Below, one piece after another: positions 28,977 through 47,538 of a stretch of DNA of 64,000 nt. The first letter of the stretch is position 1; each line of letters starts with the position of its first letter. This stretch comes from an uncultured Paracoccaceae bacterium (GTDB lineage: Bacteria > Pseudomonadota > Alphaproteobacteria > Rhodobacterales > Rhodobacteraceae): contig CANLNT010000001.1 in the NCBI GenBank assembly GCA_947492825.1, positions 682,001 through 746,000 of the forward strand. The letters are read 5' to 3'. A program made the translations under genes and the position numbers. The notes beneath the pieces are model-generated. The model did no database searches. It saw only the letters and a list, made by a program, of their open reading frames with translations, and had not been told where the DNA came from.

Positions 28977-28994
28977 TACGGAACGCTCCTGATG

Positions 28995-29025: not shown

Positions 29026-29045
29026 AGTAGTCACGGGAATACAAT

Positions 29046-30854: not shown

Positions 30855-30980
30855 CAACCCTGGGATGAAACTCTGGGGCCTTTTTGCCACAATCCCTTGC
30901 CTTAGACTCCCTATTTTTATGGGTGTGCGCTGAAAAACGCTGTCTTTTCAGGCGATTGCGCGCGCGCAGAAAAAATTATG

Positions 30981-31018
30981 CTGCGGTGCAGAAAAATGCT
31001 TGAAATGCTGCGGTGCAG
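30981..31018. promoter_or_regulatory. Two identical PhaR-type boxes upstream of phaP
   Basis: CTGCGGTGCAG occurs at 30981-30991 and again at 31008-31018, 27 bases apart. The form CTGC-N3-GCAG agrees with the PhaR binding pattern I recall from Paracoccus. They lie 70-107 bases upstream of the phaP start. The rest of the 233-base gap holds no gene. Confidence 0.75.
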
Positions 31019-31087
31019 CACGTATCTCTGTGTCACGAGATTAACGCGGTTTCTCCCACCGCACCGAAAACCCGAAAGGTAAAGACA

Positions 31088-31531
31088 ATGGCTAAGCAAC
31101 AAGACTTCACCGCTGTGTTCAAAGACATGATGGGCGCATTCCCCGTCGACACCAAAGCAATGGAAGATGCCTTCAAGTCGCAGACAACCCTGGCTGAAAA
31201 ACTGTCGGCTGTGAACATCGACGCGGCTTCCAAGTCGACTGAACTGTCCGCAAAGTGGGCTGCCGACACCCTGTCCAAGATGCAGGACCTGACCAAAGCC
31301 AAGAAAGAGCCAGCCGACTACGCCAAGTCGATGACTGACTTCGCATCTGCTTCTGCCGAAGCCGCTGCAGAGCACATGGCTGCTTTCGCTGAGATCGCTA
31401 AATCGGTTCAGACCAAGACAATGGAACTGATGATGGCCGCTGGCAAAGACGCCTCTGAGGACCTGACTGCTGCTGCAAAGAAGGCCACTGACGAGATGAC
31501 TGCCGCTGCCAAGAAGGCGACTGCAAAGTAA
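31088..31531 (+). CDS. phaP: Phasin, PHA granule-associated protein
   Basis: The protein has 147 residues and is almost entirely helical. It is rich in Ala, Lys and Met, with a C-terminal Lys/Ala repeat (TAAAKKATDEMTAAAKKAT). This matches the phasin_2-type proteins that coat PHB granules. Codon use is strongly biased, as for a highly expressed gene. PhaR-type boxes lie upstream and a strong terminator downstream, so it is a single-gene unit. Confidence 0.9.
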   Translation: MAKQQDFTAVFKDMMGAFPVDTKAMEDAFKSQTTLAEKLSAVNIDAASKSTELSAKWAADTLSKMQDLTKAKKEPADYAKSMTDFASASAEAAAEHMAAFAEIAKSVQTKTMELMMAAGKDASEDLTAAAKKATDEMTAAAKKATAK

Positions 31532-31573
31532 GCTCCCTGTCGGGCCCGACCTCCCTGCGGCCATGACAAAACT

Positions 31574-31608
31574 TAGGCGCATCCGATCCCGGATGCGCCT
31601 ATTTTCTT
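31574..31608 (+). terminator. Rho-independent terminator of phaP
   Basis: A perfect 11-bp stem (AGGCGCATCCG/CGGATGCGCCT) with loop ATCC is followed by ATTTTCTT. It lies about 40 bases after the phaP stop. Confidence 0.9.
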
Positions 31609-31630
31609 GGCTGACATACTGTTTGGCGGC

Positions 31631-32347
31631 TTAGTCCTTGCGGCGTTGCCGGATCAGCAGCAGGCCAAGCCCGGCCAGCAGCAGCGCGCCAGAGGCGGGC
31701 AGGGGCACCGCGGCGATGGTGTTGACGTTGATTGCAACGCTGCCTTGGGTCGAGAATAGCTCAAAACTGTATTCGCCCACGGCGTTGGGGTCGAACGGGT
31801 TTGACGGCGCGCGCACGCCGATCCCATCAACGCCCAGATATCCGAACAGCAGGTTTTGCGACCCTTCCAGCTTTTGGGGATCACCCTGCAACAGCGCGTT
31901 CAAGCCCGACACATTCAGCGTGCCAAGATCACCCTTGTCTGTCGCGGCACCAGCATCGGTGTCGTAAAACAGAACAATGCCAAGATCGGCGAGCGTCTGG
32001 GTGCCGGTGGTTTCGGCAAAGAAGCTAAAGTTCCAAAGCGCGCCATCAGTGGCATTTGGCCCGCGCAGTTCCGACCCGGTCGGCGCGGTGTAGGTGCCTG
32101 CGCCATCATTGCTCAGCGCAGGGTCCAGAACGTAGCGTGGCGTCGCAGCCAGCCCCAGTGTCAGGACGCCGCCCGCCACATCAAAGGTCGAAATCGCAAC
32201 CTGATCGTTGGGGATCCCTGATCCGCCAAAGGTTGCGCCCGGCAATGCGCCAAAGTTTGTGAAGGTCGGCGTGACTGGTGCAGCCATCGCAGGTGCGGCC
32301 AAAACCGCCAGTGCAGCCGCAGCTGCATATTTACGCAAAAATGTCAT
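31631..32347 (-). CDS. Secreted protein with VPLPA-CTERM sorting signal
   Basis: The protein has 238 residues. An N-terminal signal peptide (about 1-22, APAMA) is followed by a strand-rich domain and, at the C terminus, VPLPASGALLLAGLGLLL then the basic RQRRKD. This is the VPLPA-CTERM tripartite signal (motif, hydrophobic helix, Arg cluster), recognised by exosortase-type enzymes in Rhodobacterales. The protein is therefore probably processed and displayed or released with exopolysaccharide. GGGATGGG precedes the ATG at 32347. The body shows no known domain. Confidence 0.87.
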   Translation of the reverse strand: MTFLRKYAAAAALAVLAAPAMAAPVTPTFTNFGALPGATFGGSGIPNDQVAISTFDVAGGVLTLGLAATPRYVLDPALSNDGAGTYTAPTGSELRGPNATDGALWNFSFFAETTGTQTLADLGIVLFYDTDAGAATDKGDLGTLNVSGLNALLQGDPQKLEGSQNLLFGYLGVDGIGVRAPSNPFDPNAVGEYSFELFSTQGSVAINVNTIAAVPLPASGALLLAGLGLLLIRQRRKD

Positions 32348-32471
32348 GTCCCATCCCCAAGTTAACCCGTGGAAACATAGCCCCTTGGTCGAAAGGGGCA
32401 AGGGATCGCACGGGGTTGCATTGGCATTTTCAGGACTTTGGCGCACCCCATTCCCGGATGCACCTTTCTTT

Positions 32472-32849
32472 TCATGCGCCGCCGGTCAAATCCTGCGCCA
32501 GCATCATCGCGTTGCCGTCGGGGTCATAGAAGGTGGCGGTGCTGACCATGCCTTCGACAACATCATTCGGGCCGTCAAATTTCACGCCTTCCGCCTCAAG
32601 CCCCGCGCGTGCTTTGTCGATGTCGGCCACTCCAAAGACGGGCACCGAATTGCCAGGCGTCGGCTCTGCCTGTTCGCCAAGGCCAAGCGTGACACCGGCG
32701 GTTTTGGTGCTGACCTCGCTCCAACCGGCCTCGTCCGCGTGGTAGACAAGTGCAAACCCCAGCATCTTTTCGTACCAGGCCGCGCTCGCGTGGCGGTCCC
32801 GAACAGAGAGGGCGATTGTGATTGTTTCATCAAGTTCTGCGACGGCCAT
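32472..32849 (-). CDS. VOC-family (glyoxalase/bleomycin-resistance fold) protein
   Basis: The protein has 125 residues with two VOC half-domains: ETITIALSVRDRHASAAWY at the start and FYDPDGNAMMLAQDL at the end, the usual VOC closing motif. The metal positions are not clearly conserved, so the reaction is unknown. It is divergent from an HxlR-like regulator, with only 40 bases between the start codons and a palindrome in that gap. It is probably a target of that regulator. Confidence 0.85.
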   Translation of the reverse strand: MAVAELDETITIALSVRDRHASAAWYEKMLGFALVYHADEAGWSEVSTKTAGVTLGLGEQAEPTPGNSVPVFGVADIDKARAGLEAEGVKFDGPNDVVEGMVSTATFYDPDGNAMMLAQDLTGGA

Positions 32850-32872
32850 GGCACTTTCCTTTGGTCAAAAAA

Positions 32873-32885
32873 TATAGTAACTATA
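32873..32885. promoter_or_regulatory. Operator-like palindrome TATAGTAACTATA
   Basis: A perfect 13-base palindrome with 6-base arms lies 4 bases before the ATG of the HxlR-like gene and 23 bases from the VOC start. Binding here would block both divergent promoters. Autoregulation by the adjacent regulator is the simplest reading. Confidence 0.6.
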
Positions 32886-32889
32886 CTTT

Positions 32890-33426
32890 ATGAACATTGA
32901 CCAACTTGTCAAGCTTACTGCGCGCGCTTGGAGCCTGGATATTCTGGCGGCCATGTCGGACGGCACACCGGGGCGGCAGGCGCAGCTGCTCACGGCGACC
33001 GGTGCCAACCGGAATGCCTTTGCCCAAAGCATGGCGCATCTGGTCTCGCTGGGTCTGGTCGAACGCAATCCAGGCCACGGGCATCCGCTGCGGCCAGAGT
33101 TTCGGCTGACGCCCGCAGGGCAAGTGGCGGGGCAGGCGGCATCACGGGTCAAATCGCTATTGCCTGATCCGACGGACGCGCGGTTGATCCGCCGGGTCTG
33201 GTCACTGCCTATTCTGGCAGTCAGCAAGACGCCCCGGCATTTCGCGAGCTTGCGCCGGCATTTGCATCCGATCACCGATCGTGCCCTGTCACAGTCCCTG
33301 CATCATCTGCAGGCCCGCGATTGGATTGTCCGCGATATTGATCCCGATCAGACGCCGCTACGCCCGCTTTATTGTGCCTCCAGCACCGGGCGCGCGATGG
33401 CAGAGGCCTTGGAAATCGCTGTCTGA
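32890..33426 (+). CDS. Tandem winged-helix regulator (HxlR-like)
   Basis: The protein has 178 residues and appears to contain two winged-helix units. The first (about 8-85) has RAWSLDILAAMSDG and FAQSMAHLVSLGLVERN. The second (about 98-175) has RRVWSLPILAVSKTPRHF and LSQSLHHLQARDWIVRD. Both show the W-S/I-L-AM and two-helix spacing of HxlR domains, so the gene looks like an internal duplication. HxlR proteins are normally a single domain acting as dimers. It is divergent from the VOC gene across a palindrome. The ligand is unknown. Confidence 0.75.
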   Translation: MNIDQLVKLTARAWSLDILAAMSDGTPGRQAQLLTATGANRNAFAQSMAHLVSLGLVERNPGHGHPLRPEFRLTPAGQVAGQAASRVKSLLPDPTDARLIRRVWSLPILAVSKTPRHFASLRRHLHPITDRALSQSLHHLQARDWIVRDIDPDQTPLRPLYCASSTGRAMAEALEIAV

Positions 33427-33536
33427 CGGGCCTGCGGACGCAAGGTTGTGCGCGCAATTGGTCACGCGACACTTTCATTTTGCTGCAACGCCGCTTAGGC
33501 TTCTCTGCACTGCAACACGTCTTGGGAGGGACGCCC

Positions 33537-34082
33537 GTGGCTTCGACCGATAAACCCCTGCTGATTAAGCGCTATGCCAGTCGGCGGCTCTATAACACCG
33601 AAACCAGTGACTATGTCACACTGGAAGACATCGCCGCGTTTATCCGCGATGGCCGTGAGGTGCAGATTGTCGATCTCAAATCAGGCGATGACCTGACCCG
33701 CCAGTATTTGCTGCAAATCATCGCTGAACACGAAAGCCGCGGCGAAAGCGTACTGGGCACCGATATCCTGACCGATCTGGTCCGCAGCTACACTACGCAG
33801 GCCGCCTCTGTCGTGCCGTCGTTCCTGCAAGCCAGCTTCGAGATGCTGCGCGAGGGGCAGTCAAAGGCGATGGAAAACATGACCAAGGCCAGCCCGATGT
33901 CCGCGATGCCGGGTTTTGACGCCATGCGCGCGCAGCAAGAGGCGTTCTTCAAGGCCATGACCGGCGGCATGATCCCCGGCTCCTCTGGCCCCGCCAAGGA
34001 AGAGCCCGAGGATGACGGCGATCTGGATGACATCAAGGCGCAGTTGAAGGCGATGCAGGACAAGCTGAACAAGATGGGGTAG
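33537..34082 (+). CDS. phaR: Polyhydroxyalkanoate synthesis repressor PhaR
   Basis: The protein has 181 residues from a GTG at 33537, preceded by GGGAGGG. The N-terminal DNA-binding domain is the classic PhaR/PHB_acc_N form: LIKRYASRRLYNTETSDYVT and DIAAFIRDGREVQIVD. The C-terminal half is helical and contacts PHB in the known mechanism: PhaR leaves DNA when polymer granules form. TGC-rich elements (TGCTGCAAC at 33481 and CTGCACTGCAA at 33505) just upstream suggest autoregulation. Confidence 0.93.
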   Translation: MASTDKPLLIKRYASRRLYNTETSDYVTLEDIAAFIRDGREVQIVDLKSGDDLTRQYLLQIIAEHESRGESVLGTDILTDLVRSYTTQAASVVPSFLQASFEMLREGQSKAMENMTKASPMSAMPGFDAMRAQQEAFFKAMTGGMIPGSSGPAKEEPEDDGDLDDIKAQLKAMQDKLNKMG

Positions 34083-34125: not shown

Positions 34126-35601
34126 TTAGCGTGCGCGCAGGCCGCGGCTGAACGCAAATGCCTGCCGCGCAAGAATGACGCAAATCACGACAAAGAGGAA
34201 TCCGGCGATCGGGCGATTGATAAAGTCCAGCGGAGTCTCGACCCGCCCCATCGCGATGCGCAGCTTGGATTCCATGATGCCGCCCAGAACAATGCCAAGG
34301 ATGATCGGCACAACGGGAAGGTTGAGACGCTTGAGCACCAACCCAAACACACCAAACCCGGCAGCGATGGCACAATCCGTGATGGAATTGCGCAGTGAAT
34401 AAACACCGACAAACCCCAGGATCAGAATGACAATACCAAGCGGGCGCGTCGGTATCTGAATGATCTTGGTCAGCAGGTTTGTGGACACCAGCAAAAAGCC
34501 GATCACCAGAACATTCAGGATCAGCATCGCCAGATAAATGGCCATCACAAAGTCCATGTCGTTCTGGAACAATTGTGGGCCGGGCACGACGTTGTGGACG
34601 TAGAACACTGACAGCATCATCGCGGTCAGCGCCTCGCCCGGAATGCCCAAGGCCAAGAGCGGGATCATCGCCGCAGCAGGGACGGCGTTGTTTGCCGCTT
34701 CGGACGCGATCAATCCGTCCGGTGCCCCTTTGCCGAACAGCTCAGGCGCGGCCGATTTCTTTTGCGCATAAGTGTAGGACATGAACTGCGCCGTAAACTC
34801 ACCGACGCCCGGAATCATGCCCATCAGGACACCAAATGACGATGACACGGACGCAAGGCGTTTGTGTCCCATCAGCTCTTTCAGACCCGCGGTCAGCTGG
34901 CCTTTCACAGGCTGCGGATGCGGCGTTACGTTGTCTTCGACCAACAACAAGAATGCCTGAGAGAAGGCAAAAAGCCCCAGAACAACCACGATCAGGTCAA
35001 GGCCAGAGGCCAGCCATGTTTGGTCAAAGGTATATCGGGTGGAATATTTGACCGGCTCCAGCCCGATTGTCTGTAAGAAGATCCCGAAACACGCCAACAT
35101 CCCTGCGGCAAAGACCTGACCGCGGTGGGCGATAATAACAAGGATGATACCCAAAAGCGCCGCAAGGAATATCTCCCGCGCGCCGAAATGGGGCGCGATC
35201 AATGCCAGCAAGGGCGACAGGATCATCAGACACAACACAGAGAAAATGCCGCCAAAGAAAGAGGCGGAATAGGCCAGTGACAGCGCCCGCGGTGCCTCGC
35301 CCCGTTTGGTCATCGGATAGCCGTCATAAGTGGTCAGCGCGTTCACGGCTGTGCCGGGTGTGTTGATCAGGATCGCGGGAATGGCCCCGCCATACATGGA
35401 TGACCCATAAATCCCGAGCAGCGCGGTCAGGCCCACAATTGGGTCAAAGGCAAACGTCGCGGGCAGCAAAATGGCAATCGCAACAGCGGCACCAACACCG
35501 GGGATCGCGCCGATGATGACGCCCCCAATCGACCCGACAAGCAGGGCGGCCACGACATCCCATCGCGCCAGAATTCCAAAACCTGAAAGCAGGATGTCCA
35601 C
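34126..35601 (-). CDS. tctA: Tripartite tricarboxylate transporter permease, TctA
   Basis: The protein has 491 residues, the usual TctA length. It has about 11 hydrophobic segments with the family's glycine-rich motifs GAIPGVGAAVAIAILLP and YGGAIPAILINTPGTA, and a second copy of the motif as GMIPGVGEFTAQFM. It is the large membrane subunit of a TTT transporter working with TctB and the binding protein TctC. It is the last gene of a nine-gene operon whose first gene is tctC. Confidence 0.94.
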   Translation of the reverse strand: MDILLSGFGILARWDVVAALLVGSIGGVIIGAIPGVGAAVAIAILLPATFAFDPIVGLTALLGIYGSSMYGGAIPAILINTPGTAVNALTTYDGYPMTKRGEAPRALSLAYSASFFGGIFSVLCLMILSPLLALIAPHFGAREIFLAALLGIILVIIAHRGQVFAAGMLACFGIFLQTIGLEPVKYSTRYTFDQTWLASGLDLIVVVLGLFAFSQAFLLLVEDNVTPHPQPVKGQLTAGLKELMGHKRLASVSSSFGVLMGMIPGVGEFTAQFMSYTYAQKKSAAPELFGKGAPDGLIASEAANNAVPAAAMIPLLALGIPGEALTAMMLSVFYVHNVVPGPQLFQNDMDFVMAIYLAMLILNVLVIGFLLVSTNLLTKIIQIPTRPLGIVILILGFVGVYSLRNSITDCAIAAGFGVFGLVLKRLNLPVVPIILGIVLGGIMESKLRIAMGRVETPLDFINRPIAGFLFVVICVILARQAFAFSRGLRAR

Positions 35602-35613
35602 GAATGAGGTTCC

Positions 35614-36159
35614 TTAGAAGTAGGTCAGCATAAAGCTGCGCCATGCGGTGGGAAGATATTCGTAGATGGCGCCACCGGGCAGATTGACCTTCAGGGTTGA
35701 TTTGAAAGTCAGGACGATGATGAAATTCGTCAGGATCATGCCGCCAATGGCCGCAAAACTGCGGTAGCCAACTCTGATCATCAGGGCTGCACCAGCCAAC
35801 AGCGTGGCGATCAGGTAGCCCAAAAAGGGAACCAAAAGGACATACCCCAGAAACCACGCCGCGTACTCGACCGAACGCGCCCATAGCCAGATTTCCTGCC
35901 ACCGGCCAGGCAGGCGCGGCGATAATGCGGACCCGATCCAGTGGAGCGTCGCGAAGAAGGTCATGCCAGCCAGTGAAACTGCTGGCCAGAACCTTGGCTG
36001 CGCATAAAGGGCCGTTCCTTCAGCCCATATTGTCTGCGATCCCATGGATGCGAACATGAACGCAGAGAAGACAAGGAAGACGACGGCAAAAACCAAATCT
36101 CCTCGGCGGCGTTCGCGGTGAAACAGGCGGACAAACTGGGTGGTGCGTGACGATGCCAT
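35614..36159 (-). CDS. tctB: Tripartite tricarboxylate transporter small subunit, TctB
   Basis: The protein has 181 residues with four hydrophobic segments, the TctB topology, and a basic N terminus. Segments such as DLVFAVVFLVFSAFMFASMG fit the first helix. It lies 12 bases before tctA and 4 bases after the amidotransferase gene, so it is in the same operon. The ATG at 36159 is chosen because an earlier start would overlap the amidotransferase. Confidence 0.88.
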   Translation of the reverse strand: MASSRTTQFVRLFHRERRRGDLVFAVVFLVFSAFMFASMGSQTIWAEGTALYAQPRFWPAVSLAGMTFFATLHWIGSALSPRLPGRWQEIWLWARSVEYAAWFLGYVLLVPFLGYLIATLLAGAALMIRVGYRSFAAIGGMILTNFIIVLTFKSTLKVNLPGGAIYEYLPTAWRSFMLTYF

Positions 36160-36163
36160 GACG

Positions 36164-36901
36164 TTAGGCTGCCTCTGACCGAGACATGGCTTGAAGCACC
36201 TTTTGCTGCAGTTGGTCAGGCGCACGCACCTTGGACCGCAGAAACGTATCGATCATCGCGACCAAAGCATCGCGTGCAACGGGTTCATGCGCTGTGGCGC
36301 GCGCAGCTTGGGAAAGATCTGCAGGTAAGATGTCGCCATAGGCGTCAAGAGCTATGCGCATGATTGCCGCGTCAAATTCCGGATGCGGTTGGATGCCAAG
36401 GACATGGCCACCCACCATCATCATCGCGTTTTCGCAGCTGTCAGAGCTGGCAAGCCGAACAGCACCGGGTGGAAGCGCCAGCACCTGATCCTGATGCCAG
36501 GCAATTGCGTGCAGTGTCGTGCCCTGACGCAGGCAGTACCGGGTCCGTCCAACCGTCCAGCCGCCGTCGAATTTTGCGACCCTTCCGCCCAGAACATCTG
36601 CAAGGATTTGATGGCCGAAACAGATACCCACAACCGGCCGGTCCGATTTCAGGATATCGGATAGGCAGGTTTTCAGGGCCTTGATCCAAGGCTCATCCTC
36701 ATAAACCCCGTTTTTGGACCCTGTGATTAGCCAGGCATCGGCTTCATCCGCTGCTGCCGGAAAATCGCCGTTACGGACATCGTAATGGCGAAACGTGTAA
36801 CCCAACCCACCCAACAACGCGGCATACATCTCGCCATAGCCCGCGAACCGCTGCGACAGTTTTTCAGGCAAGACGCCTGCGACAAGAACGCCAATCTTCA
36901 T
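36164..36901 (-). CDS. Class I glutamine amidotransferase-like protein
   Basis: The protein has 245 residues. The nucleophile is Cys94 in VVGICFGHQIL, with His173 and Glu175 in GIQPHPEFD, so the triad is intact. A KFDGGW and WHQDQVLALPP pattern is shared with the second amidotransferase at 62700. Members of this group act on gamma-glutamyl or related amides. Here it is in an operon with a GS-like ligase, a pairing seen in aniline (TdnQ/TdnT-type) and putrescine (PuuA/PuuD) catabolism. Its start overlaps the flavin reductase stop. Confidence 0.87.
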   Translation of the reverse strand: MKIGVLVAGVLPEKLSQRFAGYGEMYAALLGGLGYTFRHYDVRNGDFPAAADEADAWLITGSKNGVYEDEPWIKALKTCLSDILKSDRPVVGICFGHQILADVLGGRVAKFDGGWTVGRTRYCLRQGTTLHAIAWHQDQVLALPPGAVRLASSDSCENAMMMVGGHVLGIQPHPEFDAAIMRIALDAYGDILPADLSQAARATAHEPVARDALVAMIDTFLRSKVRAPDQLQQKVLQAMSRSEAA

Positions 36902-37401
36902 ATAAGATCATCAAGTGGTTGGGCGTTGTTATAGCCGCGATTGGCGTAGATCAGGGCCTTTTCGCCAGATGACATCTTCACCTGCTGGACTTCGCCCACA
37001 AAAATATGGTGGCTGCCGCACATGATGTCATGCTGCACCACACAATCGAATGCGGTCAGCGCCCCATCCAGCATAGGGCTGCCTGTCTCACCTTTGGTCC
37101 ACGTGGCACAGTCGAATTTTGCTTCATCCTTGGCCTCCGTGCGCCCGGCAAACGCGTTTGAGATGGTCGTCATATCATCGCGCAACAGGTTGACGCAGAA
37201 CGTGCGGTTGGTGCGGATGGCTGCGGCGGCAGGCGACAGGTGGTGGACACAGGTCAACAACGTCGGCTTCGGCGTGTCAGCAGAGACAGAGGATACGGCG
37301 CTGACCGTCACACCGCGGCGGCCCGCAATCCCGTCCGTTGTTACGACATAGACAGAACAGGCTGCATTGGCCATTCCGTCGATAAATTGCGCGCGCAGCA
37401 T
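36898..37401 (-). CDS. Flavin reductase (FMN-binding, HpaC-like)
   Basis: The protein has 167 residues of the flavin-reductase-like split-barrel fold. VYVVTTDGIAGRRGVTVSAVSSVSADTP in part, FCVNLLRDD and HHIFVGEVQQV are the family's three blocks. These enzymes supply reduced FMN or FAD to a separate monooxygenase. The likely partner in the same operon is the acyl-CoA-dehydrogenase-fold protein at 40712. It lies 3 bases after the GS-like gene and overlaps the amidotransferase start. Confidence 0.87.
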   Translation of the reverse strand: MLRAQFIDGMANAACSVYVVTTDGIAGRRGVTVSAVSSVSADTPKPTLLTCVHHLSPAAAAIRTNRTFCVNLLRDDMTTISNAFAGRTEAKDEAKFDCATWTKGETGSPMLDGALTAFDCVVQHDIMCGSHHIFVGEVQQVKMSSGEKALIYANRGYNNAQPLDDLI

Positions 37402-37404
37402 GAT

Positions 37405-38745
37405 CTATCCTAACTCGAAAAAGCGACGCAGCTCTGTGTCCGGGACCATACCCATAAAGGCATTGTCCTGACTTTCACGGGTCGCAGTGAAGGCATCAAC
37501 AAAGACATCCCCCAGCCATTCGCGTGCAAATGCACTGGCGCGAAGGGCTGCAATGGCGTCGCGCATGTTGCGCGGGTAATCCCGCGGTTCGGTATCGGAC
37601 GGCACATAGCCATTGCCCACGACGGCGGCGTCCGGCTCGATCTTTTCGGCGATCCCGGCCAACCCGGCGGCCAGCGTTGCCGCAACGGTCAGGTAAGGAT
37701 TTGCATCCGATCCGGGCAAGCGGTTTTCAACCCGCAAGGACCCCGCGTCATGGCCAACAACCCGCAAGCATGTGGTGCGGTTCTCGATCCCCCAGGTCAG
37801 GGCAGGCGGCGCAAAGGTACCCGGCGCAAAACGACGGTACGAATTCACGGTTGGTGCAAACAGCAACATCATCTCGCCAAGGTAGGTCTGCATCCCCCCA
37901 AGAAAGTGGCGAAACGTGTCTGACATGTTGTCGGGCTTGCTTTCGTCCCAGAACAGCGGTGTGCCATCGGCCCCTATCAGCGACAGATGAACATGGGCCG
38001 ATTGACTGTCAGCCTCTTCCGACCAGCGCGCCATATAAGTGATGGTCTTGCCCTGCCGCGTGGCCAGCGCCCGCATGAAATTCTTCAGCAAGACGGTCTG
38101 GTCGGCTGGCGCAAGCCCGGTGCCGGCACCGGTGCAGGCCTCCATGAAGCCCGCGCCGATTTCCTCATGCATCTTGGCCAGATCAATCTTGAGCGCCTCG
38201 CACATGTCGGCCACGTCCGAATACCATTGTGATTGGGTGGTTTGATAGATCAACAGGTCGTGGCTGGCGTGCGTGGTGGCGGGGGTGAGGTTGCGAAACC
38301 CCTTTTCCCGCAGGGTTTCGGCCGTTTCATTGAACAGCATGTACTCCAGCTCTAGCCCGTATTTCAGGTTCAGCCCCGCGTTCGCCCCTTTGTCCAGAAC
38401 CGACGCCAGCAAGGACCGTGGGCACATGCCCGCCGTCTCACCGGTGTAGTTCGACAAGACCAACAGGTCATCGCCGTCCTTTTCCCACGGGATCGCGCGG
38501 ACCGTGCTTGGATCAACCGTTAGCGGACTGTCATGGAAATCGGCGCTTTCATCGGTCACGCCCGGAATGTCCAGAAATTCGTCCGTCGGGTCGAGCGCAA
38601 ACGTCACCGGCGCCATCCCCATACCGGCCTTCAAAATACCTTCAAACGACTTGCGTGACACTTTCTGCCCGCGCAACAGGCCATTGGTGTCCGTCATCGC
38701 AACCGTGATAAAGCGCGTTTTGTTGGCGTCCAGTATGTCTTTCAT
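37405..38745 (-). CDS. Glutamine-synthetase-like gamma-glutamyl ligase
   Basis: The protein has 446 residues. The C-terminal catalytic GS domain has LELEYMLFNETAE (metal-binding Glu), SAHVHLSLIG and GIENRTTCLRVVG, plus VENRLPGSDANPYL. The beta-grasp N-terminal domain (about 1-90) is present. It has the size of PuuA-type ligases rather than of ammonia-assimilating GlnA. Such enzymes join glutamate to an amine. Context with a ring-cleavage-type dioxygenase suggests an aromatic or heterocyclic amine. Its start overlaps the fusion-protein stop (ATGA). Confidence 0.87.
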   Translation of the reverse strand: MKDILDANKTRFITVAMTDTNGLLRGQKVSRKSFEGILKAGMGMAPVTFALDPTDEFLDIPGVTDESADFHDSPLTVDPSTVRAIPWEKDGDDLLVLSNYTGETAGMCPRSLLASVLDKGANAGLNLKYGLELEYMLFNETAETLREKGFRNLTPATTHASHDLLIYQTTQSQWYSDVADMCEALKIDLAKMHEEIGAGFMEACTGAGTGLAPADQTVLLKNFMRALATRQGKTITYMARWSEEADSQSAHVHLSLIGADGTPLFWDESKPDNMSDTFRHFLGGMQTYLGEMMLLFAPTVNSYRRFAPGTFAPPALTWGIENRTTCLRVVGHDAGSLRVENRLPGSDANPYLTVAATLAAGLAGIAEKIEPDAAVVGNGYVPSDTEPRDYPRNMRDAIAALRASAFAREWLGDVFVDAFTATRESQDNAFMGMVPDTELRRFFELG

Positions 38746-40703
38746 GTCGTTCTCCGTGGGGGGCTGTCTTGGCCAAGATCGGCCAAAGCAGCCAGGTCAG
38801 TCTCGGGATCGGTGGAATAGGCGCGCAGGAACACCTGCAATCCGCTGATGATTGTCTCTGAAATCGTCGCGTGATCCGGCAAATCATGCGGAAAATGAAG
38901 CGCGTGGTTACGTGGTCCCGACAGGATCAAGGACCAAAGGTGTTCTGCCGCGATGCCGGGGCGCTCAAACGACAGTTTCTTGTTTGTGCGTTGCGTTTCA
39001 AGATAGTCACAGATCCCCGCGTGCGCACGTGCGGGACCGGCGTCATGGAACTGACGTGCAATGTCCGGCACGCGCTCGGCCTCGCCAATGATCAGACGGG
39101 CAATCGACAGGTTGTCGGGGTGCAAAACATAGCGGGCATAACCCCAAGCAAAGTTCCAAAGGGTTGTGACCATCGGCGTATCACCGGACCCGGCCAAGGG
39201 TGCCAGGATCTTGGCGCGCCCCTGATCAAGAACCGCGCGAAAGATGTCTTCCTTACGGCCAATGTATTGATAAAGCGTCGGTTTTGAGACTTCGGCACGC
39301 TCCGCAATCGCCTGCATGGATGCACCGGAATAGCCGTTCTTTGAAAACTCGCGCAGGGCGGCGTCCAGAATGCGGGCGTGTTTGGTGCTCTTTCGCGCGG
39401 TCTTGGGCGACGCGCCGGCAGGGGGGCAAACAACCTTCAGGAATTTTGCCAATTGGGCGTTCACAGCATCGGGCTGCTCAAGGTTACAGACATGGCCCGC
39501 ATCAGCAATGACCTCAAACATCACCAGTGGCGCGTTCGCATCCGCAAAGCGGTGACTGACAGTGCGGATTTCTGCGGGCGGTGCCAATCTGTCGTGCTCC
39601 CCCGTCATCAGAAGAACGGGAAAACTGGCATTGGCAAAGTCGAGCTTTTCCAACGGGTTGCAAAAGCAGTTCAACGCATCGCGATACGTCGCGGCAGGAA
39701 TACTTGCCATTGATGCGTGCAGCTTCGCGCGTATCTCTGGCGATGCAGACGGACCGGCGATGATGTCGACCACTCCTGACGCAAAATCTGCGGGGGTCTG
39801 ACCGGCATCCAGCGGCACTTCCCTTGAGACGCGGAACGACTCGCGTTCATCGGGGTCCGCCTCGGACATGCCCGTGCAGCCGCCGCACAACACCAAACCG
39901 GACATCTTGTCGGGGTTGGCCAATGCAAAGCTTGCCGCGATCCATGACCCGTAGCTTAACCCGCACAGCACGACCTTTTTTGCGCCGAACTTGGCCATAA
40001 CGGTCTGAATATCATCGAAATAGCTGTCCAATTGGGACGGCGAAAACCCCAGCGTGCTTTCCCCATATCCACGCAGATCAAGGGCAACGGTCGGCATGAT
40101 ATGCGCCAAAGCGGCGACCTGATCGGCCCAGTTCCTGCGGTTGCCCCCGATCCCGTGCAGGAATAGGCAGATTGTCTCGGCGGCCTCCAGCCCCTCGGGT
40201 GCGACGCTCAGGCCAAGACAAGGCGTTTTCCCTAATGTCAGGTGCCGAGCCGAGCTTTGAGGCAATGTTTCATGTCCTTGGGCCTCTGATCTTTGGGGCG
40301 AGACAAGTGTTTCCAGGCCAGCTTCAAAAATGGCGCGCGTGCCGTCCGCAATATCCTTTGCGCGGGCCGCGCTTGCGTTGATCTCTGCGTTCCACGTCAC
40401 GGTCGAACCCGTCCCGTTTTCCGAGATTTTCAACCGTGCCTTGTAAGATTTCGCATCCGCGATCCCCTCGACCATATCATAGGACATCGTATGATCGCTC
40501 GCGCTGTAATAGGTCAGCCGTTCGCGCATGATCGCATCGTTGTCACCGGTTGCAAAACGGCGGATGATCTGGGCGTTTGCGGGCGGTTCGATCTTCGACC
40601 AGGCCACCATCGGGTGCCAGTCGACATTGAAATCAGCGACCGTCGCCCAGACATCGTCTGGGGGGGCTGTCGACTGAGAAATGCAGTGAACCGTCTCGCG
40701 CAT
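38742..40703 (-). CDS. Three-domain fusion: SRPBCC - alpha/beta hydrolase - TetR regulator
   Basis: The protein has 653 residues. Residues about 1-135 are an SRPBCC/START-like ligand-binding domain (TAPPDDVWATVADFNVDWHP, VTWNAEINA). Residues about 160-425 are an alpha/beta hydrolase with an intact triad: Ser250 in CGLSYGSW, Asp371 in TGEHDRLAPP, His404 in ADAGHVCNLEQP. Residues about 437-640 are a TetR regulator with the HTH ASMQAIAERAEVSKPTLYQY. There is no stop or frameshift between domains. It lies in the middle of the operon, 8 bases after the preceding gene. I know of no described protein with this architecture. Confidence 0.88.
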   Translation of the reverse strand: MRETVHCISQSTAPPDDVWATVADFNVDWHPMVAWSKIEPPANAQIIRRFATGDNDAIMRERLTYYSASDHTMSYDMVEGIADAKSYKARLKISENGTGSTVTWNAEINASAARAKDIADGTRAIFEAGLETLVSPQRSEAQGHETLPQSSARHLTLGKTPCLGLSVAPEGLEAAETICLFLHGIGGNRRNWADQVAALAHIMPTVALDLRGYGESTLGFSPSQLDSYFDDIQTVMAKFGAKKVVLCGLSYGSWIAASFALANPDKMSGLVLCGGCTGMSEADPDERESFRVSREVPLDAGQTPADFASGVVDIIAGPSASPEIRAKLHASMASIPAATYRDALNCFCNPLEKLDFANASFPVLLMTGEHDRLAPPAEIRTVSHRFADANAPLVMFEVIADAGHVCNLEQPDAVNAQLAKFLKVVCPPAGASPKTARKSTKHARILDAALREFSKNGYSGASMQAIAERAEVSKPTLYQYIGRKEDIFRAVLDQGRAKILAPLAGSGDTPMVTTLWNFAWGYARYVLHPDNLSIARLIIGEAERVPDIARQFHDAGPARAHAGICDYLETQRTNKKLSFERPGIAAEHLWSLILSGPRNHALHFPHDLPDHATISETIISGLQVFLRAYSTDPETDLAALADLGQDSPPRRTT

Positions 40704-40711
40704 GCTTGATC

Positions 40712-42022
40712 CTAGGCCTTTGGTGCTTCGGGTGATGCTGGCCGCCACATGGACACACGCGCGCGCACAGCTTCCGGGTCTGCGCCAACGGTGTCGATTT
40801 CGTCCATGTCATAAAGCGTCATCATAGACAGGTAGTCTTCCATGATTTCAGTGGTGTAGGGAAGCATCAGCGCGCCGCAACGGCTATCGCGATACATGCG
40901 TTCCAGCGGCAGGGACTTCAGCATGGATTGACCACCACAGGTCCGGATCGCCAGCGCGGTCATCTCTTGAACGCCTTCCATCACCGCATATTGCGCCGCA
41001 TAAAGCCGCATGACCTGTCCCTTGGTCGGGAAGCCGCGCGCTTCCATAAAGGCCGTGTGCCACAATGTGCGCATTTCGATCAGCTTTTGATACATCTTCG
41101 CGACGGTGGCACGTTTGGTCGGATAAACCCGGCGGTCAATCGGCGGCAACCCGTCAACTTTACCGCTCAGATACTTGACGGTGTAATCATATGCGCCCTG
41201 CGCCACGCCCATATAGGCTGGCGTCAGCGTGGCCATCATATGCGGCCAATGGGGCAATGTGCGCACGAACAGACCCTGCGGCATCATCATCTCTTCTTCC
41301 GTGACGAACACGTCCTTAAGGATCAGGTCTTTGGAATGTGTGCCGCGCATACCGATCGGATCCCACTCGCCAACAACCTGCAAGCCGGGTGAATCCTTGT
41401 GAACAGCAAAGTTCATCGCATCTTCGTGGCGCGGCTCGACCCCCTCAAAATGTTCGGTGCAGACGATAGAGTAATAGTCACAATACCCCGCAAGTGAGGC
41501 GAATTTCTTGAACCCGTTAATCAGGTATCCGCCATCAACTTTCTTGCAGTTGGTCTGGATCGGTTTCGATGTCCAATTGGTGCCACCTTCAGAAATGGGC
41601 TGCGAATAGATCGCGTTGTTTTCGACAACATTGCGGAACTGACGTTCGCGCAGCGGGGCAAAGGCCGCCCGGTCAGCATCGGTCAGGTTGGGAAGCTCGT
41701 ACATGAAACGCGACCACATCATGGATGAGGTGTGCATGTTGAATGTCAGCGCGGTCGCACCGCAGTATTTGCCGATCTCAGCGCCGATCATTGCATATTG
41801 ACCAAGTGAGAACCCGAAACCGCCAAACTCTTTCGGGATCACAAGGCGCAAAAAGCCGTGCTTGGCGAAGTCTTCGTAGTTTTCGGTGGGGAAGGACGCG
41901 TCCTTGTCGACCTGCACCGCGCGTTCCGCGATTGTCGGGCCAAGCTCATTGGCGAGCTCCATCATCCGCAAGAACTCTGGCGCGAACCCGTCGGTGTCGT
42001 AGTAGTCGTGGAACGTGGTCAT
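40712..42022 (-). CDS. Acyl-CoA-dehydrogenase-fold flavoprotein without catalytic Glu (monooxygenase candidate)
   Basis: The protein has 436 residues with the N-terminal, middle and C-terminal domains of the acyl-CoA dehydrogenase fold. Where dehydrogenases have YEGT(S/T)EIQ after the RMYRD motif, this protein has MLPYTTEIM after RMYRDSRCG, so the catalytic base Glu is replaced by Pro. A flavin reductase is encoded in the same operon. Together these suggest a two-component flavin monooxygenase of the DszC/HpaB-like kind. The start overlaps the NicX-like stop. The hydroxylated substrate is unknown. Confidence 0.82.
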   Translation of the reverse strand: MTTFHDYYDTDGFAPEFLRMMELANELGPTIAERAVQVDKDASFPTENYEDFAKHGFLRLVIPKEFGGFGFSLGQYAMIGAEIGKYCGATALTFNMHTSSMMWSRFMYELPNLTDADRAAFAPLRERQFRNVVENNAIYSQPISEGGTNWTSKPIQTNCKKVDGGYLINGFKKFASLAGYCDYYSIVCTEHFEGVEPRHEDAMNFAVHKDSPGLQVVGEWDPIGMRGTHSKDLILKDVFVTEEEMMMPQGLFVRTLPHWPHMMATLTPAYMGVAQGAYDYTVKYLSGKVDGLPPIDRRVYPTKRATVAKMYQKLIEMRTLWHTAFMEARGFPTKGQVMRLYAAQYAVMEGVQEMTALAIRTCGGQSMLKSLPLERMYRDSRCGALMLPYTTEIMEDYLSMMTLYDMDEIDTVGADPEAVRARVSMWRPASPEAPKA

Positions 42023-43065
42023 GCCAGATCTCCTTGAAGTTTGCCTTTGATGACAACCGGCGTGCCATCAAGTGAAATGGTGCAGCCGCGCATCGGCAGG
42101 TCAAAATGCCCCAGCGTGAAACGGCCAGCGTATTGATTTGAACCCGTGGACCACAGGAAATTGCCCGCCCAAGCGCGGAATTCGGTCGCCTGAATGTCGC
42201 CTTTGTCATAAAGCGCAAGGCTCTCCCAACGGGCGGCGGGGTTCATGCCCCAGCCAACATGAGAAAAGCCGTAGGCCTTGGGGTCGTCCCATGCCGCAAG
42301 GTATTCGCGGAACAATTCAGCGTCGAGGTTGTCGCCCCGAATGTCCGTGACGTAGTCATTTTCGACCGTCATCGCGACTTGATTACGCAAATAGTCTTTG
42401 AACGTCAGGTTCATGTCGCCCACGTCCATGACAACCGTGCCATTCACAGCGTTTTCACCGGGAAAACACAGGCACAAGCCACCGGGCCAATGGTCAACCG
42501 CGCCGGGGCGTGTGGAAAAACCGGGCGTGCCGCCGCAAGGTGCGTCCTTGATGTTGATCGTCAGATCGGTGCCCGCATCCGAGGTCACGCGCATCTCCGA
42601 GGCGTCGTTCAGCATCTGAATACCAAGCGCGACCTTGGGGCCAAGCTCTGCGCGCGGCTCGGTGCGTTCAAGAATTTCGGGGTGTTCATTGCAGATCACA
42701 AGCAGCCGCGTGCCCGCCTGTTCGATCTCTGCCATTTCTTCGGCATGGATCAGGCCCTCGACGGTGACATCGACAATGATTTCAACGTGTTTCAGCGCCT
42801 CGATCACGTGGCGCTTGTGCTGGATCGCGTCACTGGTCCCGGTCGATTTCACAGGCACAGGTGCGGTTTGCGCCGCGGTTGGCAGAACAATCGTCGAATA
42901 CTCTGCGCCCAGATCATGCAGGGCAAGGCCAGCCAATTGCCCCAGCACGGGGCGCGACTGTGTCTCCGCGACAATCGCGACCTGAGTGCCGGGCCCTATG
43001 CCGTTTAGCGTGAACACGCGCTTGAACGAAGAGACCCACTTTCCCTCTGGGATTTCTTGCATCAT
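42019..43065 (-). CDS. NicX-like 2,5-dihydroxypyridine 5,6-dioxygenase homologue
   Basis: The protein has 348 residues, equal to NicX in length. Segments DHWPGGLCLCFPGEN, VVMDVGDMNLTFKDY and YGFSHVGWGMNPAARW align with my memory of Pseudomonas NicX. The Fe(II) ligands His, His and Asp are conserved as His269 (FSHVGWG), His320 and Asp322 (LGHFDLPMRGC). NicX opens the ring of 2,5-dihydroxypyridine to N-formylmaleamate. Related M29 aminopeptidases are the alternative, but the ligand pattern favours NicX. It is the second gene of the operon, after tctC. Confidence 0.8.
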   Translation of the reverse strand: MMQEIPEGKWVSSFKRVFTLNGIGPGTQVAIVAETQSRPVLGQLAGLALHDLGAEYSTIVLPTAAQTAPVPVKSTGTSDAIQHKRHVIEALKHVEIIVDVTVEGLIHAEEMAEIEQAGTRLLVICNEHPEILERTEPRAELGPKVALGIQMLNDASEMRVTSDAGTDLTINIKDAPCGGTPGFSTRPGAVDHWPGGLCLCFPGENAVNGTVVMDVGDMNLTFKDYLRNQVAMTVENDYVTDIRGDNLDAELFREYLAAWDDPKAYGFSHVGWGMNPAARWESLALYDKGDIQATEFRAWAGNFLWSTGSNQYAGRFTLGHFDLPMRGCTISLDGTPVVIKGKLQGDLA

Positions 43066-43127: not shown

Positions 43128-44072
43128 TTATTGACCGAGGATTTCAGCCATCGTGCCCATAACGACCATGTCGGCCTCGATCTGAGCAGCAGCTTCTTCG
43201 GCGTTTTGCCAATAGACAACAGCACCTGTTTGCGCCGCGAACTCCTTGGCGCGATCTGACGCCATTGTCTTGGCTGCGACGGCTGCGATCTTTTCGCGCA
43301 CGTCGGCTGGTGTGTCCGCATGGACGAACAGACCGTTCCACATTCCCAGATTAAGCTCGGGCCGGATTTCGCCAACCGTCGGGCTGTCTGGCGTCATCGG
43401 AAGACGATCAGTTGTCAAAGTTGCAAGGATCGTCATGTCGTCCAGACAGGGCAGCAACAATTGGATGGACGTGTTGCCGACATCCGCATCGCCAGATGCG
43501 AAGGTATTGCAATCAATGGCATCAAACGCAGCCTCGGCACCATATTCAAAGCCCATCTGCGACGCCATGGCAAAGGTCACCTGCGTTGGTGTCAGATCTG
43601 GTCCAAAATGTGCCAGAACGACAGAATTGTCGGTCGCATAAGCCGCCAGTTCTTCCATGGTCTGATAAGGTGCGTCATTCGTTGTCGCGATGACCATTGG
43701 GTAGGCTACGAAAATGCCAACAGGCTCGAACGGGTTCGGGTTCAAAGGTGGAATACCGATCAGCGGCCCGACAAGCGGCACGTCCATAACAAAAGACCCG
43801 ACAGTGTAGCCATCTGCAGGTGCGCCCGCGACTTCGATTGCGCCGGGGAAGGGGCCGCCGCCGCCACCTGGCTTGTTCACAACAGCTGCGGGGATTCCAT
43901 AGGCCGCCTCGAAGTCTTCGGCGATCATCCGTGTCAGCACGTCTTCAACATCGCCGGGCGGAAAGGGAACCACAAAGGACACGGGCTTTTCGGGATATTC
44001 GGCCAAGGCAGGGCTTGCAGACGCAAGCACCGTTGCCGCGATCAGATAGGCGGTGGATGTCATCGTTTTCAT
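43128..44072 (-). CDS. tctC: TTT solute-binding protein, TctC/Bug family
   Basis: The protein has 314 residues with a signal peptide (about 1-24, SPALA). The mature part begins EYPEKPVSFVVPFPPGD and contains VNKPGGGGGPF, the Bug-family ligand loops, although a GD pair replaces the usual GG. It captures a carboxylate-type solute in the periplasm for TctAB. GGGAGA precedes the ATG at 44072. It is the first gene of the nine-gene operon, directly behind the TetR-type palindrome. Confidence 0.92.
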   Translation of the reverse strand: MKTMTSTAYLIAATVLASASPALAEYPEKPVSFVVPFPPGDVEDVLTRMIAEDFEAAYGIPAAVVNKPGGGGGPFPGAIEVAGAPADGYTVGSFVMDVPLVGPLIGIPPLNPNPFEPVGIFVAYPMVIATTNDAPYQTMEELAAYATDNSVVLAHFGPDLTPTQVTFAMASQMGFEYGAEAAFDAIDCNTFASGDADVGNTSIQLLLPCLDDMTILATLTTDRLPMTPDSPTVGEIRPELNLGMWNGLFVHADTPADVREKIAAVAAKTMASDRAKEFAAQTGAVVYWQNAEEAAAQIEADMVVMGTMAEILGQ

Positions 44073-44091: not shown

Positions 44092-44110
44092 TTACTATAC
44101 GGTTTAGTAA
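44092..44110 (-). promoter_or_regulatory. TetR-type operator in front of tctC operon
   Basis: TTACTATACGGTTTAGTAA is a 19-bp palindrome about a central G, with 8 of 9 arm positions matching. It ends 20 bases before the tctC start, so it covers the promoter core. Its form (ACTnnACnGTnnAGT) is like known TetR-family operators. The obvious candidate binder is the TetR domain encoded at 38742-40703. Confidence 0.7.
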
Positions 44111-44129: not shown

Positions 44130-44135
44130 TGTCAA
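44130..44135 (-). promoter_or_regulatory. Candidate -35 element of tctC operon
   Basis: A consensus TTGACA reads on the minus strand. The matching -10 is not clear, but would fall within the palindrome at 44092-44110. Confidence 0.4.
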
Positions 44136-44211: not shown

Positions 44212-46164
44212 TTAGCTGGCCACTTCTTGACCCATGAACAGCGGTCCACCCCGCCAGCGGGGGAAGCCGTAGCCGTTAACCATAACAACATCGATGTCGT
44301 CTGCGGATTTGGCAATTCCCTCTTCGAGAATCGCTTTGGCTTCGGCGCGCATGGTCGCCAGAATTTGCGCCATAATGTCGTCCTCCGTCATGCGCTTTCG
44401 CTGAATGCCTTTGGCCTTCGATGTCTCTAGAATAAGGGCCGTGACGGTCGGATCGATTGTCGCTTTGCCGTCGACGTATCGGTACCATCCTGCCCCGGTC
44501 TTGTGCCCGAAACGGCCCATTTCGCACAGCCGATCAGCGATTGCGACATAGCGTTCGTGCGGGTCGCGCGTCGCCGCGCGTCGCTTGCGCATGGCCCATG
44601 AAATGTCGAGGCCCGCGAGGTCCTGCATCTGGTAAATCCCCATCGGAAAACCAAACGCCCGCATCGCCGCATCAACCTCTTCGGGCATGGCTCCATCTTC
44701 GATCATGTGGTCACAGGCGCGCCGATAGGCAGACATGATCCGGTTGCCGATGAACCCGTCACACACGCCCGCAGGCACGGTGATCTTGCGAAGGCGCCTG
44801 CCAAAAGCGACGCCCGTTGCCACCGCAACAGGTGACGCGTCTTTCGGGATCACCAGTTCCAGCAGCTTCATGATATGCGCGGGCGAAAAGAAATGCAGCC
44901 CGATGACGCGGCTTGGATCAGCCGTGCCGCGCGCGATGTCATGGATATCCAGATAAGAGGTATTGGATGCAAAAAGCGCATTTGGCTTGCAGGCCTTATC
45001 AAGGGCTTCAAACACGGATGTCTTGACGTTCATGTCCTCGAACACGGCTTCAATTACCAGATCGGCGTTGGCGACAGCGGCAAATGCGCTGGCCCCAGAG
45101 AACGCCAAAACCATGTCGTCGTGTTTGGCCTGCGTGATTATTCCGCGTGACAGACTGTCGGCCAACACATCTTTCGTGCGGCGCATGCCAAGCGTCAGGG
45201 CCGCGTCGTCGCGTTCAATCATCACCACATCAAACCTTGCCAAGAGGCAAGCCGCTGCGATACCCGCGCCCATCGTGCCACCACCAATCACGCCAATTTG
45301 GTGAAGCGGGGCAGGGGTGACCCCCTCAATCGCGGGAATTTTTGCCGTGGCCCGTTCCGCAAAGAAGATATGCCGCAAGGCGCGCGATTGCGGATCGCAT
45401 TTCAGGGTCAGAAACAGGGCGCGTTCCGCCTCCAAAGCGTCTTGCGCCGACATTGCCACCGCATTGCGAACGGCCTGACACACTGCCACAGGGCTGTTCT
45501 GCCCGCGGGCCTTTGCAGTGATCGCCGTGATCTTCTTGTCCAGTGCGGCAGGATCGTGATCCGCCATTCGGGTCAGGATGGGGGCCGGGCGCGGCAGGCT
45601 TGCGATACGTTTGGCAAATGCAACGGCATCCTCCAGCAGTTCACACGCGCTGATCTCGTCGATTAGGCCCAGACTTCGGGCGCGGGCGGTCAAGATCGGC
45701 TTGCCACTGGCCATCATGTCCAACGCGGCTTCTGCCCCGATCAGGCGCGTCAGGCGCACGGTGCCGCCAGCGCCGGGGATCAGCCCAAGTTTGACCTCTG
45801 GCAGACCCATTTTCGCCGCAGGTACAGCGATGCGATAGTCACACCCCAGCGCAACCTCCAATCCGCCGCCCAGTGCTGTGCCGTGAAGTGCTGCAACCCA
45901 GGGTTTGGTGCCACCTTCCAACACCATAACCACGTCCGGCAGGTGCGGCAATTTTGCAGGTGCACCAAATTCCCTGATGTCCGCGCCCGCGATGAACGTT
46001 CGGCCCGCGCAGTAAAGGACCGCCGCCTTGATCGTTGCATCGCCTTCGATCTGGCGTTTTGCATCGACCAATCCCTGACGAACAGCCTGCGAGGTCGCGT
46101 TCACGGGGGGATTGTCGATGGTGACCACCGCCACACCGTCTTGGGATGTAACGGTGACAGTCAT
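44212..46164 (-). CDS. Fused enoyl-CoA hydratase / 3-hydroxyacyl-CoA dehydrogenase
   Basis: The protein has 650 residues. An N-terminal crotonase domain (about 1-180: GRTFIAGADIREFG and AALHGTALGGGLEVALGCDYR, with the oxyanion-hole glycines) is followed by the NAD-binding domain (IGVIGGGTMGAGIAAACLL near 293) and the C-terminal dehydrogenase domains (GLHFFSPAHIMKLLELV; DLAGLDISW). It performs two beta-oxidation steps. It lies one base after the GcdH-like gene on the same strand. Together they would process ring-cleaved CoA thioesters from the divergent aromatic operon. Confidence 0.92.
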   Translation of the reverse strand: MTVTVTSQDGVAVVTIDNPPVNATSQAVRQGLVDAKRQIEGDATIKAAVLYCAGRTFIAGADIREFGAPAKLPHLPDVVMVLEGGTKPWVAALHGTALGGGLEVALGCDYRIAVPAAKMGLPEVKLGLIPGAGGTVRLTRLIGAEAALDMMASGKPILTARARSLGLIDEISACELLEDAVAFAKRIASLPRPAPILTRMADHDPAALDKKITAITAKARGQNSPVAVCQAVRNAVAMSAQDALEAERALFLTLKCDPQSRALRHIFFAERATAKIPAIEGVTPAPLHQIGVIGGGTMGAGIAAACLLARFDVVMIERDDAALTLGMRRTKDVLADSLSRGIITQAKHDDMVLAFSGASAFAAVANADLVIEAVFEDMNVKTSVFEALDKACKPNALFASNTSYLDIHDIARGTADPSRVIGLHFFSPAHIMKLLELVIPKDASPVAVATGVAFGRRLRKITVPAGVCDGFIGNRIMSAYRRACDHMIEDGAMPEEVDAAMRAFGFPMGIYQMQDLAGLDISWAMRKRRAATRDPHERYVAIADRLCEMGRFGHKTGAGWYRYVDGKATIDPTVTALILETSKAKGIQRKRMTEDDIMAQILATMRAEAKAILEEGIAKSADDIDVVMVNGYGFPRWRGGPLFMGQEVAS

Positions 46165-47400
46165 TCAGGAAAACGCCTGCAGGCCAGTGATGCCGCGCCC
46201 CAGGATCAAGGCGTGCACATCATGGGTGCCTTCATAAGTGTTGACCGCTTCAAGGTTCATCACGTGGCGGATCACCCCGTATTCATCACTCACACCGTTG
46301 CCGCCGTGCATGTCACGGGCTTCACGCGCAATCGCAATCGCCTTGCCGCAATTGTTGCGTTTCATCAGGCTGATCGCTTCGGCAGAGGCCACGTGATCGT
46401 CGAACATGCGGCCCAGTTGCAGCGCCCCTTGCAGGCCAAGCGCGATTTCGGTTTGCATATCGGCCAGCTTTTTCTGGATCAGTTGGGTTTGGGCCAGGGG
46501 CTTGCCGAACTGTTTGCGATCCATCGTATAGCTGCGCGCTGCATGAAAGCAGGCCTCCGCCGCCCCCATCGCGCCCCACGCGATGCCAAACCGGGCGCGG
46601 TTCAGACACCCGAATGGCCCCGCTAACCCACTGACATGCGGCAGCAGGTTTTCGTCGGGCACGAATACATCCGCCATCTGGATCATGCCGGTAACTGACG
46701 CCCGCAATGAAAATTTGCCTTCGATCTTCGGCGCATGCAGGCCCTTCATACCTTTTTCAAGGATGAACCCTTTGATCTTGCCATCATGGTCATCTGACTT
46801 GGCCCAAACGATGAACACATCCGCAATTGGCGCGTTGGTGATCCAGTTTTTCGCACCAGAGATCATGTAGCCGCCGTCGACCTTTTTGGCTCGTGTCAGC
46901 ATCGCGGCGGGGTCAGACCCTGCGTCCGGTTCGGTCAGGCCAAAACACCCCACAAGTGCGCCACTGGCAAGTTTGGGAAGGTACGTGTTGCGCTGCGCAT
47001 CCGTACCATATGCAAAGATCGGATGCATCACGAGGCTGCTTTGCACGGACATCGCCGAACGATATCCGCTGTCCACACGCTCAACTTCGCGCGCAACAAG
47101 GCCGTAGGACACATAGTTCGCGCCGACGCCGCCAAAGGCCTCTGGGATGGTCGCGCCAAGCAGCCCAAGTTCACCCATCTCGGACATGATATCGCGATCA
47201 AACACCTCGTTGCGGTTGGCCATCATCACCCGACTGGCAAGGCGATCCTGACAATAAGTATGTGCCGCATCCCGAATCATCCGCTCTTCTTCTGACAGCT
47301 GATTTTCGATCAGAAAGGGGTCATCCCAAACCAGTTTGGCAGGTTTTTTACGGGCTTGCGCCAGATCTGTTGTCACAATGGGGTTCGTATCTTGGTTCAT
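46165..47400 (-). CDS. gcdH: Glutaryl-CoA dehydrogenase-like acyl-CoA dehydrogenase
   Basis: The protein has 411 residues. FAD and substrate motifs [17 protein letters not shown] and [17 protein letters not shown] are present, and the catalytic Glu is in [11 protein letters not shown], a sequence very close to known glutaryl-CoA dehydrogenases. These oxidise and decarboxylate glutaryl-CoA to crotonyl-CoA, which the downstream hydratase/dehydrogenase could take on. The ATG at 47400 is preferred to a TTG at 47433. It shares a divergent promoter with the aromatic operon. Confidence 0.88.
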
Positions 47401-47455
47401 GTCCGGCGCACCATTCAGCGATGTTTCAGACAACGCTACCGCGTTCGAAATTTAC

Positions 47456-47482
47456 TTCAAGCCTAAAATATTTGAGCTTGAA
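47456..47482. promoter_or_regulatory. 27-bp operator-like palindrome in divergent promoter
   Basis: TTCAAGCnnAAAnnnTTTnnGCTTGAA reads the same on both strands, with centre at 47469. It lies between the GcdH-like gene and the divergent 2-aminobenzoyl-CoA-type operon. The MarR regulator at 50564 is the likely binder. Confidence 0.65.
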
Positions 47483-47538
47483 ATTTAACAGCGATGTTCA
47501 TAGCGTGAAAAAGCAACAACTTGATCCAGGGGTGTCAA

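Follow-up and report, generated by a model that had tools for sequence, protein, structure and literature searches.

Organization of the operon

The window, a stretch of 64,000 nucleotides from an uncultured Paracoccaceae bacterium, carries a compact operon on its minus strand that encodes, in order, a TctC-type protein, a NicX-like dioxygenase, a protein of the acyl-CoA dehydrogenase fold, a fused enzyme and regulator, a glutamine synthetase (GS)-like protein, a flavin reductase, an amidotransferase, TctB, and TctA. The first gene (43128–44072) encodes the TctC-type substrate-binding protein (PF03401), and the second (42019–43065) a relative of the 2,5-dihydroxypyridine dioxygenase NicX, which matches 7cn3 with E = 7e-56. 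The iron ligands of NicX are His265, Ser302, His318, and Asp320, with His105 as a substrate residue (PMC7910607); these positions are aligned to identical residues in the protein of the window. Since all four iron ligands and His105 are kept, the NicX-like protein likely cleaves the ring of a dihydroxypyridine-like compound. The third gene (40712–42022) encodes a protein of the acyl-CoA dehydrogenase fold, a probable two-component flavin monooxygenase; its relatives include true dehydrogenases but also DszC, nitrososynthase, and oxygenases of the HsaA type.

The fused gene (38742–40703) comes next, and its stop shares 4 bp (38742–38745) with the start of the GS-like gene at 37405–38745, whose product resembles gamma-glutamyl-amide ligases (PF00120, E = 2e-83). 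There follow a RutF/HpaC-like flavin reductase (36898–37401, PF01613), which matches RutF with E = 2e-41 while falling under the RutF cut-off, and a class I glutamine amidotransferase-like hydrolase (36164–36901, PF00117). The operon ends with the TctB and TctA transporter genes (34126–36165, the TctB start being approximate), recognized from their position, their translations, and homologues in relatives. Across the relatives described below, the core of NicX-like, oxygenase-like, SRPBCC-hydrolase, and TetR components is constant, and the flanking genes vary: depending on the locus, the periphery contains a GS-like ligase, an amine oxidase, an aminotransferase with a kinase, or a P450 with a GS-like protein. 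That these peripheral genes handle amines in various ways suggests an amine-bearing aromatic as the substrate of the operon, which we offer as a guess.

The region at 44212–47433 encodes an acyl-CoA dehydrogenase and a fused enoyl-CoA hydratase/3-hydroxyacyl-CoA dehydrogenase, and it adjoins a divergent plus-strand gene (47521–49833) for an FAD monooxygenase/OYE fusion that scores above the cut-off for bifunctional salicylyl-CoA 5-hydroxylase. Together, the genes of 44212–49833 apparently make up a further aromatic pathway, CoA-linked, that lies next to the operon. At the other end, positions 27690–34082 look like a polyhydroxyalkanoate cluster, with depolymerase-/synthase-like, phasin-like, and PhaR-like products recognized from the translations only.

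Architecture of the fused protein

The fused gene, on the minus strand, translates into a single protein of 653 residues without an internal stop, and its ATG at 40703 is preceded by a plausible ribosome site, AGGATCAAGC. An earlier note on this DNA, which left the strand unstated, had described such an uninterrupted frame and had divided it into three folds, SRPBCC, alpha/beta hydrolase, and TetR. The domain search that it proposed bears out all three, and adds a fourth module that it had missed. The N-terminal SRPBCC domain (residues ∼3–137, positions 40293–40697) is matched by Polyketide_cyc2 (PF10604, residues 12–134, E = 9e-15) and, in a phmmer search, by 2le1 with E = 1e-5; it is the domain with the lowest conservation in the homologue alignment. 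The alpha/beta hydrolase domain (residues ∼173–423, 39435–40187) is matched by Abhydrolase_1 and Abhydrolase_6 (PF00561/PF12697, residues 180–416, E = 1e-22). After a linker (residues ∼424–440, 39384–39434) comes the TetR helix-turn-helix (residues ∼441–491, 39231–39383), which, as the note had claimed, is intact (PF00440 at 445–491, E = 2e-15). The fourth module, at residues 514–630 (38814–39164), is an AefR-like C-terminal ligand and dimer domain, TetR_C_7 (PF14246, E = 6e-19). All four modules exceed the curated Pfam cut-offs, and TetR_C_7 is matched in 27 members, equal to the count for TetR_N.

The hydrolase has both the fold of its superfamily and a Ser-Asp-His triad. The GxSxG elbow reads G248-L-S250-Y-G252, and the triad of Ser250, Asp371, and His404, also named in the earlier note, is unchanged in every one of the 32 homologues that were aligned. 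The AlphaFold2 model of the whole chain has a mean pLDDT of 91.9 and a pTM of 0.72. In a comparison with 4uhc, the Thermogutta esterase VIA, the hydrolase gives a Z of 35.4 with an rmsd of 1.9 over 262 residues; the whole-model comparison is filled by this domain, and the SRPBCC and TetR parts were assigned by sequence. The sequence shows the middle of the protein to be a complete Ser-Asp-His hydrolase and the C-terminal third a complete TetR regulator. Indeed, the helix-turn-helix and the C-terminal domain both match AefR-like TetR proteins (PF14246; e.g., 3cdl), whereas the AefR-like matches in the PDB are chains of ∼200 residues and the regulator of the fusion stands behind ∼430 residues of enzyme. 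Because an AefR-like ligand domain is still present in the TetR part, and is conserved, the proposal that the enzyme and a START-like pocket take the place of the usual TetR sensor is rejected in the form given.

In nicotinate catabolism, NicD acts after ring cleavage by NicX. The operon resembles this NicX-NicD module in having a NicX-like dioxygenase with all iron ligands and an adjoining alpha/beta hydrolase. However, its NicX-like protein is only ∼35–38% identical to those annotated in plasmid nic-type clusters. These clusters contain separate hydrolase, racemase, and amidase-type genes together with a separate MarR or TetR gene, whereas the operon of the window has the GS-like, flavin reductase, and acyl-CoA-dehydrogenase-fold genes beside the NicX-like gene. 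When the hydrolase was compared with those of three nic-type clusters, the matches were partial (27–30% over part of the chain, E ∼0.002–0.3), and orthology with NicD, the N-formylmaleamate deformylase, was rejected. Assignment as PcaD, the 3-oxoadipate enol-lactonase, was likewise rejected, the score being 98 bits against an NCBIfam equivalog cut-off of 256. It is position and fold that lead us to infer a NicD-like, or deformylase, role. In the open-access literature, which was searched with some loose terms so that absence is weak evidence, we found no description of a TetR-hydrolase fusion, of GS-like/NicX-like clusters, or of an aminopyridine pathway that matches.

Fused and split forms of the operon

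Among the GTDB genomes and family genomes searched, the uninterrupted fused frame is present in 14 distinct loci, the window included, at 45–77% identity. These span many genera, isolates as well as metagenome bins, and a second genome of the species of the window. A sequencing or assembly error that joins two genes might be suspected, as in relatives from the same family this place is occupied by a pair of genes, each in its own frame; with the same architecture recurring in so many genomes, such an artifact is refuted and its probability is negligible. The earlier note had asked for the same domain order in other genomes and had raised the prospect that homologues would always be separate genes. 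The order is found, and the fused frame recurs across genera. The operon, with a fused hydrolase-TetR frame at the contig end, is also carried by L016, which is filed under a gammaproteobacterial bin and is possibly mis-binned alphaproteobacterial DNA.

In 18 other loci, an SRPBCC-hydrolase and a TetR regulator are encoded by two genes at the matching operon position. These loci belong to the family of the window (12 genera) and to Rhizobiales, where the orthologues occur in Ensifer adhaerens W2-A, Aminobacter aminovorans KCTC 2477, Shinella, and Sinorhizobium, plasmids included. The operon core, the domains, and their order are as in the window; the difference is the gene pair, in which the start of TetR overlaps the stop of the hydrolase by exactly 4 bp (ATGA or GTGA) in 18 of 18 loci. 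A 19th split locus (L092), in which the frame is broken between the SRPBCC and hydrolase parts, was excluded from the alignments; the 4-bp overlap is present there too, as it is in a distant Bosea pair (∼30% identity) that has no SRPBCC domain in front. A further locus (L090, in genome G134) has the core operon with the SRPBCC-hydrolase and no recognizable TetR gene behind it, so that the enzyme need not be accompanied by the regulator.

The SRPBCC-hydrolase is a single gene in all 18 split relatives analyzed, so that the junction between these two folds is not special to this protein; what is new in the fusion is the junction with TetR. The observation made in the earlier note is confirmed, and its interpretation is partly supported. 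The linker of the fused protein falls at the site of the stop/start overlap in the split relatives; the distance from the hydrolase fold to the TetR fold is equal within a few residues in the two forms, and the linker is poorly conserved among the fused proteins (24%). An internal start with a Shine-Dalgarno sequence was sought in the linker encoded by the window and was not seen, and a separate TetR product is therefore not expected; we rejected this candidate. When the linkers were scanned for internal starts across the loci, a purine-rich match was found in L075 only.

For the history of the fusion, we used a tree of the NicX-like and monooxygenase proteins, two upstream markers chosen as independent of the fusion trait. 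One branch, with a support of 100, parts the fused from the split loci, and this separation was matched in 0 of 500 shuffles. A tree of the hydrolase and TetR domains agrees, and with the Bosea outgroup the fused clade is nested among split forms. The single, fully supported branch suggests a single fusion, at the place where the two genes of a translationally coupled pair overlapped; a small indel would have removed the stop/start junction of the 4-bp overlap, most likely once. The direction from split to fused is likely rather than proven, because the outgroup branch is long. All four modules in the fused loci are under purifying selection, with omega ≤0.31 where dS is measurable and mostly <0.17, ratios that are rough owing to the saturation of many synonymous distances.

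The junction length, the domains, and the operon all match those of the split pairs, and every split pair already looks translationally coupled. These features are what one would expect if the fusion were near-neutral, with enzyme and repressor working independently as they do in the split relatives and with fixed stoichiometry as the only regulatory meaning. We give this reading an even chance. The lack of any reversal among 14 diverged fused lineages speaks against it, though weakly, and an enzyme tethered to DNA could conceivably alter local kinetics.

A candidate operator and the regulatory reading of the fusion

Upstream of the operon is a palindrome, TTACTAAACCGTATAGTAA, at 44092–44110 on the minus strand. 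It lies across the place where the −10 box would be expected and ends 19 bp ahead of the first gene, and a TTGACA candidate −35 box lies at 44130–44135 on the same strand, a layout repeated in many relatives. The match in the window is exact, where 0.03 matches would be expected at ≤3 mismatches, and the palindrome occurs once in its own 4.0 Mb genome. Of the 14 fused loci, 13 have the palindrome with 0–1 mismatch. The exception, L010, is on a 6-kb contig that offers little sequence upstream and probably stops short of the promoter. Among the split loci, three have the palindrome within one mismatch, and most of the others show a diverged, CTTTACTnnnAAGTAAAG-like palindrome at the corresponding place; in the remainder the pattern finds no match. 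Because some of the compared loci served to derive the pattern, these local counts are not independent, whereas its genome-wide absence elsewhere is: of 395 family genomes, the exact pattern is present in 8, every one of which belongs to the 11 that have the fused gene, and in 0 of the other 384. A different pattern, TTTACT(N8)AGTAAA, has the wrong spacing and was rejected, its matches being at the level of chance.

Given this co-occurrence, and with TetR as the regulator common to the loci, we strongly infer that the palindrome is the candidate operator of the fusion. The palindrome could instead serve another regulator, the fused TetR part having lost DNA binding. A MarR-type gene, judged from its translation, is indeed nearby at 50564–51037, and binding of the palindrome by the fusion is a prediction. 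However, the helix-turn-helix is the best conserved of the domains in the fused clade, at 68% mean identity and with low omega where measurable, and the exact pattern is confined to genomes with the fused gene, in which the gene surroundings differ. We consider service to another regulator improbable.

Taken as the operator of the fusion, the palindrome fits a scheme in which one chain is both a hydrolase of the pathway and the autorepressor of its own operon, alongside a NicX-like ring-cleaving dioxygenase, and we think that this is probably correct. The TetR part would dimerize and bind the palindrome over the expected −10 box, and the bound protein would repress the whole operon from tctC to tctBA, its own synthesis included. 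Repression would be relieved when a pathway ligand enters the pocket of the TetR C-terminal domain. The hydrolase would open or deacylate the product of the NicX-like dioxygenase, by analogy with NicD, and the SRPBCC domain may be an accessory pocket for the hydrolase. The simplest benefit of the fusion would be the production of enzyme and repressor at a fixed ratio of 1:1.

Fusions of enzyme and repressor are, to our knowledge, uncommon, with PutA as the most familiar example. The DNA-binding part of PutA is a small N-terminal ribbon-helix-helix on redox enzymes. The fusion described here differs in that an entire TetR regulator, ligand domain included, is attached to the C-terminal side of a hydrolase. 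It is nevertheless a variant of known enzyme-repressor fusions such as PutA, with clean comparative evidence, and in joining an enzyme to a DNA-binding domain within one chain it has the structural hallmark of a PutA-like trigger enzyme. PutA, the trifunctional proline utilization A protein, is a single polypeptide that acts both as a catabolic enzyme and as repressor of the operon that encodes it, and it is switched by its substrate (PMC9132996). With this precedent, binding or turnover of substrate in the hydrolase or SRPBCC domain might alter the affinity of the TetR part for DNA, along the lines proposed in the earlier note. The joint is short, the last hydrolase helix (411–425) and the first TetR helix (433–456) being seven residues apart in the AlphaFold2 model, and the fusion has been retained across 14 loci. 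However, the TetR part retains its own ligand domain under purifying selection, the split relatives run the same operon without a covalent linkage, and the low conservation of the linker is contrary to a tightly tuned allosteric joint. Switching by substrate in this manner is conceivable but somewhat unlikely in our judgment. Direct allosteric reporting from the active site to DNA is possible, and we would propose only tentatively that the hydrolase joined to TetR detects the inducer, or breaks it down, right at the promoter, such that the flux of ring cleavage sets operon expression through one molecule.

The fused and split forms of one operon provide a natural control pair for the covalent linkage of enzyme and repressor. 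With an operator that can be read from the genome and both forms present in nature, the effect of linkage is directly testable, and the system lends itself to asking whether direct reporting from an enzyme to a promoter is possible. The fusion further points to a catabolic operon, centered on a NicX-like dioxygenase and present in several lineages of alphaproteobacteria, of which the literature search gave no description.

Finally, many split loci (L080, L081, L085, L096, L047, and others) have, upstream of the NicX-like gene and of the TTGACA box, a second palindrome of approximately GATTTTCGAAAATC. It is not seen in the window, and where it occurs it possibly reflects a second regulator.
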